DNA of 6,024 nucleotides from contig CP070719.1 in the NCBI GenBank assembly GCA_020350725.1, forward strand, positions 1,063,615 to 1,069,638, in the 5' to 3' direction. Origin of the DNA: a bacterium. GTDB lineage: Bacteria; BMS3Abin14. Position numbers and translations under genes: made by a program. The notes beneath the pieces are model-generated. The model ran no database searches and was not told the origin of the DNA. It saw nothing but the letters and a program-made list of their open reading frames with translations. Every line of letters begins with the position of its first letter. The first letter of the stretch is position 1. Positions 3,181-6,024 of this stretch are shown here, in pieces.

Positions 3181-3292
3181 TTTTGGATTTTGGACTATTG
3201 ATTTCGGACTATTGAAACTGAGATCCGGGCTCAGGACCTTATCTCTTATCGCTTAATTCTCAGGACTGGTTTCCGCTTTCTGCTTTCGACTC
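3181..3292. repeat. Heptamer-periodic word tract running through the transporter's stop codon
   Basis: From 3181 the sequence can be cut into about 16 successive 7-base words in constant phase. The clearest are TTTTGGA at 3181-3187 and 3188-3194, CTATTGA at 3195-3201 and 3209-3215, CTTATC-ending words at 3237-3243 and 3244-3250, and TCYGCTT at 3272-3278 and 3279-3285. Words at 3216-3236 and 3258-3271 are poorly related, so the tract is degenerate. The transporter stop codon (3253-3255) lies inside it. The exact 14-mer at 3181-3194 recurs inverted at 5737-5750 in the larger tract on the right. Confidence 0.6.
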
Positions 3293-4805: not shown

Positions 4806-5570
4806 CTACCTGCCGGCGACGAAGATGATCTTCTCGTCGGTGTAGGAGAGGACCTGCCCCGTTTCGCTGATCTCAATATGAAACTGATCCTTGATGTGCT
4901 CCGGGGCCTCCACGAACTCCCTCTCAAGCGCCCTGAGTCCTGCACCCTTCAGTCCCACCCTCTCCACCCACTCATCAAAAGGATGCCGACGTTCGAATTT
5001 CTTTTCCTCTTTCACCCTTAACCCTGAACCTTTTATATGATCCCGCCACTGTTCCCGATCCAGTGACCTGACGTGACTCGGGTCCCGGATCCTCTCTACT
5101 GTGTTGATGAACCTGTCACCGTCGACGTCTGAAGGAGCCAGACTGTCGATGAGAAGAAGGATACCCTCGGGTGACAGTATCCTCCGGACCTCCCCGAGAA
5201 ACGCGGGCACGGACGGGAAATGGTGGCAGGCGATACGGCACAGAACCAGGTCGACGCAGCCGTCCCCGACCGGGATGCCGTCAGCCCTGGATTGGATACA
5301 GGACACACCTTCGATCCCCACAGACGCCAGGTGTTCCCTGGTGACTTTGAGCATCTCCAGAGTAAGGTCCTGAGCGAGGCAGAAAGCGGAGAACGGAGCG
5401 GCCACCCTCAGAGCGTGGCCGGCTCCCGTGGCCACATCCAGGGTTACCCGGGGCAGGATCCGTCGTGCAGCATCCCGGATGGTTTCGAGATCCGGACCGG
5501 CACGGTGGTCCGTACTCTTCAGGTACCTGTCAGCGGACCGGGAAAACGTCTCTCTCGGATCAGTGGGCAT
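4806..5570 (-). CDS. Class I SAM-dependent methyltransferase (Methyltransf_11 / UbiE-like fold)
   Basis: A 254-residue soluble enzyme predicted to transfer a methyl group from S-adenosylmethionine; the acceptor cannot be read from the sequence. Motif I is TLDVATGAG (43-51), followed by the acidic ribose-binding residue in AQDLT (D68), the motif II-like SRADGIPV (94-101) and DLVLCRIACHHF (107-118). Strand 5 follows at GILLLIDSLAP (136-146). The N-terminus FSRSADRYLKSTDHRAGPDL is typical of the YcgJ/UbiE-like group acting on small molecules. The C-terminal half (WRDHIKGSGL, FDEWVERVGL) is the usual acceptor-side region. Length and ends are normal, and the gene stops with TAG. No Shine-Dalgarno sequence precedes the ATG at 5570, and the bases just upstream belong to a heptamer-repeat tract, so it may be leaderless or poorly translated. 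Residues 181-192 are encoded by a short heptamer tract with codons (TCA, TTA, AGG) unlike the GC-rich rest. Confidence 0.9.
   Translation of the reverse strand: MPTDPRETFSRSADRYLKSTDHRAGPDLETIRDAARRILPRVTLDVATGAGHALRVAAPFSAFCLAQDLTLEMLKVTREHLASVGIEGVSCIQSRADGIPVGDGCVDLVLCRIACHHFPSVPAFLGEVRRILSPEGILLLIDSLAPSDVDGDRFINTVERIRDPSHVRSLDREQWRDHIKGSGLRVKEEKKFERRHPFDEWVERVGLKGAGLRALEREFVEAPEHIKDQFHIEISETGQVLSYTDEKIIFVAGR
4996..5030. repeat. Heptamer-periodic tract inside the methyltransferase reading frame
   Basis: Five 7-base words lie in one phase. On the plus strand neighbouring words are clearly related: TTTCCTC (5003-5009) with TTTCACC (5010-5016), and CTTAACC (5017-5023) with CTGAACC (5024-5030). 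It encodes residues GSGLRVKEEKKF (181-192) of the methyltransferase. The protein there still looks like the family, so this may be composition rather than insertion. Confidence 0.4.
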
Positions 5571-5576
5571 GAACGA

Positions 5577-5713
5577 CAGTTTATAGTTTACCGTTCACGG
5601 TTTCCAGTCGGGAAAAGGCCGTGATTGGTGATTCGAAAAGATTAGTTTCCAGTTCACGGTTCACGGTTCGCAGTTAAAAACCGCCGTGATTGGTGACTCG
5701 TGATTCGTGATTA
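5577..5713. repeat. Heptamer tract with two word families: GTTCACG-like and GTGATTC-like
   Basis: The GTTCACG family occurs at 5577-5611 as diverged words (CAGTTTA, TAGTTTA, CCGTTCA) and more cleanly at 5644-5678, with GTTCACG at 5652-5658 and 5659-5665. The GTGATTC family occurs twice at 5621-5634 and four times in a row at 5686-5713 (GTGATTG, then GTGACTC, GTGATTC and GTGATTA). The two families alternate A-B-A-B, which suggests that a compound block of about 60-65 bases was duplicated. The tract begins 6 bases upstream of the methyltransferase ATG and so forms its leader. Confidence 0.75.
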
Positions 5714-5720
5714 GCCAACC

Positions 5721-5755
5721 AATCCAAAATCTAAAATCCAAAATCCAAAACTGAG
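5721..5755. repeat. AATCCAA heptamer array
   Basis: AATCCAA occurs at 5721-5727, 5735-5741 and 5742-5748, with AATCTAA at 5728-5734 and a diverged unit AACTGAG at 5749-5755. The reverse complement of its core (5737-5750) is identical to 3181-3194 in the tract beside the transporter's stop codon. Confidence 0.75.
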
Positions 5756-5760
5756 GACAT

Positions 5761-5814
5761 CTCTGTGGCCCTCTGTGGCGGCGTCTCAAAGGGCGCCTCT
5801 GTGTCCTCTGTGGT
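5761..5814. repeat. CTCTGTGG word array
   Basis: CTCTGTGGC occurs at 5761 and 5771 (period 10). CCTCTGTG occurs at 5796 and 5805 (period 9). The two pairs flank a different spacer that includes GGCGTCTC and GGGCGCC. On the minus strand the word reads as CCACAGAG or ACACAGAG. Confidence 0.65.
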
Positions 5815-5830
5815 AAAGTTTTAATTCCCG

Positions 5831-5864
5831 GGATTGCTTCACGCGGCTTCCTGTTCGCAATGAC
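5831..5864. repeat. REP-like inverted element of the GTCATTGCGA...GAAGCAATCC type
   Basis: The plus strand opens with GGATTGCTTC and closes with GTTCGCAATGAC, so the ends pair as ATTGC/GCAAT around a GC-rich centre with two GCTTC-like words. From memory, intergenic elements starting GTCATTGCGA and ending GAAGCAATCC are widespread in many bacterial genomes; I have not checked this by search. The stem is short, so a stable hairpin is uncertain. Confidence 0.5.
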
Positions 5865-5874
5865 AATCGCTTGT

Positions 5875-5969
5875 TCGCCCCCTCGCCCCCTCGCGATGGG
5901 CTTAGTCCCCGTGTCTCCGCCTCTCCGTGTCTCCGCGTCCGCCTATCGCCCCCTCGCCCTCTCGCGGCC
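5875..5969. repeat. Period-8 words: TCGCCCCC and GTGTCTCC families
   Basis: TCGCCCCC occurs at 5875-5882 and 5883-5890 and again at 5946-5953, followed by TCGCCCTC at 5954-5961 and TCGCGGCC at 5962-5969. Between the two copies lies a second period-8 family: GTGTCTCC at 5911-5918 and 5927-5934, with GCCTCTCC at 5919-5926 and a weaker unit at 5935-5942. One word family therefore brackets another. Confidence 0.7.
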
Positions 5970-5970
5970 T

Positions 5971-5998
5971 CTGGACGCTGGACCCTGGACTCTGGACT
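5971..5998. repeat. CTGGACN heptamer array
   Basis: Four perfect-phase heptamers lie at 5971, 5978, 5985 and 5992: CTGGACG, CTGGACC, and CTGGACT twice. Only the last base varies. No gene, promoter or RNA is apparent anywhere in 5571-6024 apart from these word arrays. Confidence 0.75.
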
Positions 5999-6024
5999 TA
6001 TTCCTCCCCACCAAATGGACCAGC

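Follow-up and report, generated by a model that had tools for sequence, protein, structure and literature searches.

What occupies the last intergenic gap of a bacterial sequence of 6,024 nucleotides (the window, positions 1063615-1069638 of a 2.78-Mb genome), and what kind of process put it there? An earlier note, written from the letters alone, described this gap as a patchwork of short degenerate tandem arrays belonging to unrelated word families that bracket or alternate with one another, and suggested a common generating process for them. The genome is rated 100% complete and comes from a phylum represented in our collection by 12 genomes, all of one family. We analyzed the composition of the gap, its copies elsewhere, and the variants visible at contig ends, and we weigh the explanations as the evidence bearing on each is reached.

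Modules of the window mosaic

Positions 5577-5998 carry no genes and lie between the start of a methyltransferase gene, whose start codon (5570, minus strand) is 8 bp away from the mosaic, and the end of the window, which is a scaffold gap of 100 N. The final 26 bases of the window look like a gene end rather than mosaic; in a second contig, L038, the matching RlmD-type gene (a name assigned by sequence inspection) continues beyond the bases that correspond to window 5999-6024. The methyltransferase and the RlmD-type gene are each present in one copy in the genome. All of the word families named in the earlier note were recovered at their positions (Table 1), with approximate limits for the GTGTCTCC array. 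We denote the modules A (GTTCACn), B (GTGATTn), C (AATCCAA), D (a CTCTGTGG pair flanking a hairpin), E (GATTGCTTC..GCAATGAC), F (TCGCCCCC), G (CTCTGGA), and J (ATTAGAGC); these patterns were defined after the arrays had been inspected.

Table 1. Features of the window mosaic and its flanking genes (window coordinates; TRF, Tandem Repeats Finder).
Feature	Position	Strand	Evidence
Methyltransf_11 SAM methyltransferase gene	4806-5570	-	Pfam, E 3e-16
First A-B unit, GTTTACCGTTCACGG / loop / CCGTGATTGGTGATTC; imperfect hairpin, heptad arms	5578-5634	+	RNA fold z
Second A-B unit, (GTTCACG)n / loop / (GTGATTn)4; hairpin, heptad arms	5650-5714	+	TRF: GTTCACG 5652-5669, CGTGATT 5685-5712
C module, AATCCAA x4+2, exactly 30 bp	5721-5750	+	TRF
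D left, CTCTGTGGCC array, period 10	5761-5779	+	TRF
Hairpin within D, GGCGTC TCAAAG GGCGCC	5780-5797	+	both-side changes in other copies
D right, TCTGTGTCCTCTGTGG	5798-5813	+	sequence and other copies
E module, GATTGCTTCAC...TTCGCAATGAC, REP-like repeat	5832-5864	+	64 copies in 800 kb
F module, TCGCCCCC, period 8	5875-5894	+	TRF
GTGTCTCC/CCTCTCC array, period 8	5908-5940	+	TRF 5914-5936
Second F module, TCGCCCCC, period 8	5946-5965	+	TRF
G module (CTCTGGA), CTCTGGAC GCTGGAC CCTGGAC TCTGGACT, exactly 30 bp	5969-5998	+	30-bp copies elsewhere in genome
Apparent 3' end of RlmD-type 23S rRNA methyltransferase gene, cut by scaffold gap	5999-6024	-	identical to L038 9384-9409

The periodicity of the 422 bases is concentrated at few lags. 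Against 1000 dinucleotide shuffles, self-identity at lag 7 is 0.393 (null 0.256, z 6.2), followed by lag 14 (0.385, z 5.6) and lag 8 (0.324, z 3.1), with the remaining lags from 2 to 20 inside about 2 s.d. of the shuffles. The earlier note had staked its reading on shuffled sequence falling short of the lag-7 and lag-8 signal and on arrays occurring in the rest of the genome; the first is seen here, and the second in the genome-wide arrays described below.

Not all of the families are unrelated. GTTCACn is close to the reverse complement of nGTGATT, and the two make up the arms of one hairpin around a short loop, with fold z scores of -3.9 (plus strand) and -3.1 (minus strand) for the first A-B unit and -3.0 and -2.2, respectively, for the second. 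The pattern of the second unit has 41 copies in our regex list; inspection of that list shows that the N positions, where the arms of A and B vary, do not covary and pair no more often than chance. The hairpin within D behaves differently: its arms change on both sides (GGCGTC/GACGCC, GCGGTC/GACCGC, GGTGTC/GACACC), and these changes are compensatory. The pairs come from explicit extraction of 15 arm pairs, of which six were visibly mis-parsed and set aside, and this extraction was used because the MAFFT alignment was out of register. Inverted partners of arrays are enriched in genomes G000 (14% vs 5%) and G008 (24% vs 4%) and in scattered named loci (40% vs 10%). We considered whether every array is a hairpin arm, and this is not general, since inverted partners reach 3% vs 2% in three sampled genera of the same family. 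The hairpin pairs show no clear preference for either strand, and the window together with three rich loci gave no Rfam match at gathering score.

Two side observations concern the rest of the window. Another gap contains smaller degenerate arrays at 3186-3215 and 3266-3287 (GATTTCGGACTATT x2 and CTGCTTT), related to C as read on the opposite strand. In addition, a gene spanning about 3-2468 has an in-frame TAG at 342-344 (complement) that breaks the AAA_2 (ClpB/ClpA-type) domain of a 708-aa ORF; the reading frame runs on beyond the TAG, which is a pseudogene mark, a sequencing error, or a strain variant.

Abundance, order, and length of the arrays

The last 525 bp of the window match 141 places in the genome (blastn), and AATCCAA has 83 exact overlapping three-unit matches. 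Tandem Repeats Finder, run at score 36 on 400 kb taken evenly from the genome, detected 73 period-7 arrays, or 18 per 100 kb, versus none in first-order Markov sequence size-matched to the sample; 296 kb of unrelated genomes yielded one, AT-rich, and other genera of the same family hold 5 to 42 per 100 kb. Tandem units of 7 bp exceed both chance and other periods, as in the class of intergenic heptamer simple sequence repeats (STRR, LSSR).

The word families are modules of one polar composite repeat and are not independent. Instead of the alternation described earlier, the actual pattern is a fixed directional order common to many loci, A-J-C-(A-B)n-C-D-D-E-F-G, on a single strand. Modules were scanned in 800 kb taken in stretches, half evenly spaced and half centred on hits; the hit-centred half makes the sample biased, so that counts are raised, but it does not create the order. 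Three measurements describe the polarity. First, order asymmetry is 282, compared to a mean of 73 and a maximum of 123 in 2000 within-run shuffles. Second, neighbouring modules lie on the same strand in 522 cases and on opposite strands in 135 (476 vs 90 for A-G and J). Third, several pairs run strictly one way (J-C 17:0, C-D 19:0, D-E 26:0, A-E 23:0) and others less strictly so (E-F 33:4, F-G 34:10, C-A 27:3, B-C 37:11), with A directly before B in 70 cases in the 800 kb. Replichore orientation was set aside as a cause, the skew being weak and having no clear tie to module strand.

Mosaics are placed largely outside genes: by a simple codon-score gene caller, 42 of 766 modules fall inside called genes, although 80% of the sequence is coding. 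Clusters in tandem-gene gaps are antisense to the genes by 31 to 8 (p 0.0003), so that along the coding direction of the downstream gene the modules read G-F-E-D-C-B-A-start codon, and the A end is often near the start codon (8 bp in the window). The mosaic may have a regulatory role. A stronger version, in which the mosaic functions as a leader or regulatory RNA region for the downstream gene, as proposed for TAACTGA repeats, and selection maintains its order, would account for this placement and for the compensatory changes in D. We consider it improbable: whole blocks differ between strain variants with nearly identical flanking genes (see below), 18 clusters sit between convergent genes, the window and three rich loci have no Rfam match, and the hairpin pairs do not clearly favour a strand.

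Period-7 arrays built of differing words share a length peak at 30-31 bp, which comprises 26 of about 75 arrays in the even sample. The peak recurs in G008 (29-31 bp) and in other genera (30 bp) despite their different words, and of the 51 CTCTGGA (G) arrays in the 800 kb, 39 measure exactly 30 bp. Variants of the second unit of the G array recur among copies, which indicates that the copies are related by descent.

The claim that other uncultured bacteria have word arrays of this kind was borne out. Of the 12 family genomes, 5 contain a CTGGACT array, which none of the 278 other genomes sampled has; its reversed control has 0 matches in 290 genomes. Among the named-genome matches listed, in a search run with the array alone, it is also scattered through Planctomycetota, Acidobacteria, Chloroflexi, Verrucomicrobia, Cyanobacteria, Bacteroidales, Proteobacteria, and others. 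AATCCAA x3 is found in 14 of 290 genomes and its reversed control in 5; the excess among the 278 genomes outside the family (8 vs 2) is not significant by genome count (p 0.11). Copy numbers are high in two genomes. G287 and G040 come from other families, and there the AATCCAA array stands alone, 31 bp and mostly four units long, with sharp edges between unrelated flanks. Intergenic regions of G287 (L181 5939-6142, L182 6933-7380, L180 5303-5333) are bracketed by inverted 31-bp AATCCAA/TTTTGGA arrays, one directly ahead of a start codon. The reversed control led to AACCTAA arrays with more units (TTAGGTT on the opposite strand) in an unrelated genome, G238, for instance at C4:25838-25886.

Standalone arrays of this kind raise the possibility that arrays and hairpins are non-autonomous mini-elements of MITE or REP type, inserted with strand bias and nesting by a transposase, of which two Y1 (RAYT-like) genes in the genome are candidates. 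The I element (CCTGAGCCTGTCGAAGGG) splits A and D arrays at defined positions, which counts in favour of this view. By eye, target-site duplications at the edges of the G287 and G040 arrays were not recognised; one of the Y1_Tnp genes lacks any module in the surrounding 1.5 kb or so, and the other has just a cluster nearby; and independent insertions would not give the strict order A-J-C-A-B-C-D-E-F-G. We regard this explanation as rather unlikely. The I element itself was seen at L030 about 9405-9440 and in 12 further places, where its recurrent positions within A and D arrays resemble those of a small insertion.

Contig-end variants and the origin of the mosaic

The earlier note had proposed comparing the same gap in close strains. 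Five pairs of variants permit this, read as alleles from the overlapping contig ends of one scaffolded assembly and not from isolates. L038 carries the bases around the window methyltransferase start codon, then a different mosaic, then the RlmD gene, and we infer that it and the window contig are two strain alleles of one gap. The two have A-B-A-B in common, at about 5% difference, and an identical terminal F-G; between these, C-D-D-E-F in the window is replaced in L038 by a G-type block. The second pair sets C-[D]-E against C-[A B A I A]-E, the two sequences parting where C ends and coming together again where E starts. In a third, the left part, E, and a 100% identical gene flank are kept and the block between them differs. 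Two further pairs differ by exactly one unit, of 8 bp in one and 15 bp in the other. The comparison therefore answers in both directions, with whole-block change in three pairs and single-unit change in two, and suggests, as far as assembly behaviour is a guide, that blocks and units both turn over quickly.

The assembly has its own signature at these places. The 800 kb sampled contains 48 runs of exactly 100 N and two runs cut by stretch ends, and many of the runs adjoin or interrupt mosaics. Scaffold gaps at L037 9639-9738, L038 8998-9097, and others lie in or beside mosaics. Given such gaps and overlapping contig ends placed far apart, the scaffold order is doubtful. An identical 141-bp D-E-F segment is common to contig ends at L037 3374-3514, L030 11882-12022, and L054 7986-8126; such an exact size points to a branching repeat and a k-mer of 141 in the assembly.

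That one slipping microsatellite cannot suffice, as first argued, agrees with the many word families, their common unit length and total of about 30 bp, and the genome-wide scale of the process. Slippage of many heptamer seeds under selection, with polymerase geometry favouring 7-bp units and a stable array length, is a broader proposal. Period 7 predominates, alleles are one unit longer or shorter, and in many bacteria, according to work cited in PMC4679880, long simple repeats are most often heptamers. Yet the lengths peak at 30-31 bp instead of declining from a minimum, the recurrent G-array variants point to descent, and conserved order and block swaps disfavour slippage as the sole process, which we think has little chance of being the full account.

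A repeat-generating enzyme, telomerase-like or other, that synthesizes templated words would explain one length for different words and a 31-bp word array that recurs in unrelated families. Among the mechanisms raised initially, templated synthesis is unsupported. The genome has no RVT_1 reverse transcriptase match in Pfam, in a search that was positive for 3 of 14 controls and that a divergent enzyme would escape; the clearest length variants step by a single array unit, as ordinary slippage would give; and in block variants whole composites change. We hold templated synthesis to be very improbable; a dedicated enzyme that generates repeats is conceivable.

Microhomology copying between loci, also raised initially, fares better, in that block swaps at module edges fit exchange via shared short words. 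The reading we favour by a modest degree is a dispersed, polar, non-coding mosaic resembling REP elements and BIMEs, in which blocks are exchanged by recombination at shared words of about 30 bp and units by slippage; the two processes together fit the order and the coherence of strand, as well as the breakpoints at module edges and the steps of single units. Most modules are degenerate arrays with heptamer or octamer units and a length near 30 bp, and some modules are hairpins. Under this model, array units would be gained and lost by slippage, and whole blocks would move between mosaics by recombination or gene conversion anchored in the shared words. Collinear anchors in the exchange would preserve strand and order, and arrays landing in genes would be removed by selection. 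The words are probably old, having arisen as heptamer hairpin arms or arrays and been inherited as the vocabulary of the lineage. A blastn search of the genome for a donor of the swapped window block at 95% identity or more found none (best 84-90%), so that the exchange is inferred and not traced to its source. Recombination leaves two observations unexplained, namely the common length of about 30 bp among different words and the sharp-edged AATCCAA x4 arrays of unrelated genomes. Some room is left for a more tentative alternative, a new class of element made of directional, ordered intergenic phrases of heptamer-array blocks of about 30 bp that a dedicated process maintains and reshuffles within a small phylum, with single blocks (AATCCAA x4) arising independently or by horizontal transfer in unrelated phyla.

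Relation to known repeats

To our knowledge, heptamer repeats in bacteria have been noted for decades and lack an accepted origin. A genome in which hundreds of arrays keep to one order, favour one length, and vary visibly between strains makes the question testable, as slippage, insertion, and recombination each predict different strain differences. Mosaics located at many scaffold gaps probably break short-read assemblies, and they may represent fast-evolving sequence ahead of many genes. Repeats of seven letters are already known; as far as we found, the ordered, fixed-length, rapidly exchanged patchwork is apparently undescribed. The open-access literature found contained no description of ordered composites of several heptamer families, nor of the CCTTCGACAAGCTCAGG repeat, and absence there is not proof of novelty.

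The BIMEs and REP elements of enterobacteria are mosaic intergenic elements composed of palindromes and motifs. The present mosaics resemble them in being intergenic, multicopy, mostly outside genes, and built of short motifs in a preferred order with internal hairpins, and by eye E and I resemble REPs. They differ in that the modules are mostly heptamer or octamer arrays and not palindromes of about 35 bp, in a polar order extending over up to ten modules, and in the lack of a clear RAYT association. By eye, E and I also lack the GTAG or CGTC tags that mark the two large REP superfamilies (PMC3733652).

Heptanucleotide STRR are known from heterocystous cyanobacteria, other heptamer simple repeats include GGGNATC in Xanthomonas and Nostoc (PMC4692102), and a polymerase-footprint hypothesis accompanies the prevalence of heptamers (Mrazek 2007, as cited in PMC4679880 and PMC4692102). 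Like STRR, the arrays described here are degenerate, have two to several units, are dispersed and intergenic, and vary in unit number among related strains, in our case by one 8-bp and one 15-bp unit between the alleles inferred from contig ends; unlike STRR, they combine many words in an ordered composite of arrays of about 30 bp with whole-block exchange. In the P6b stem of the Nostoc trnL group I intron, heptad repeats (Class I TDNGATT, Class II NNTGAGT) likewise form pairing arms of seven-nucleotide motifs with variable length (PMC4476775), but within a self-splicing intron at one locus, whereas the mosaics are free and intergenic. The TAACTGA direct repeats of marine Beggiatoaceae, which precede start codons and also occur in Cyanobacteria and Bacteroidetes (PMC4679880), resemble our arrays as intergenic heptamer tracts of 2-6 units near start codons that are present in distant phyla; they consist of one word, whereas the composite described here joins at least eight modules in a fixed order.
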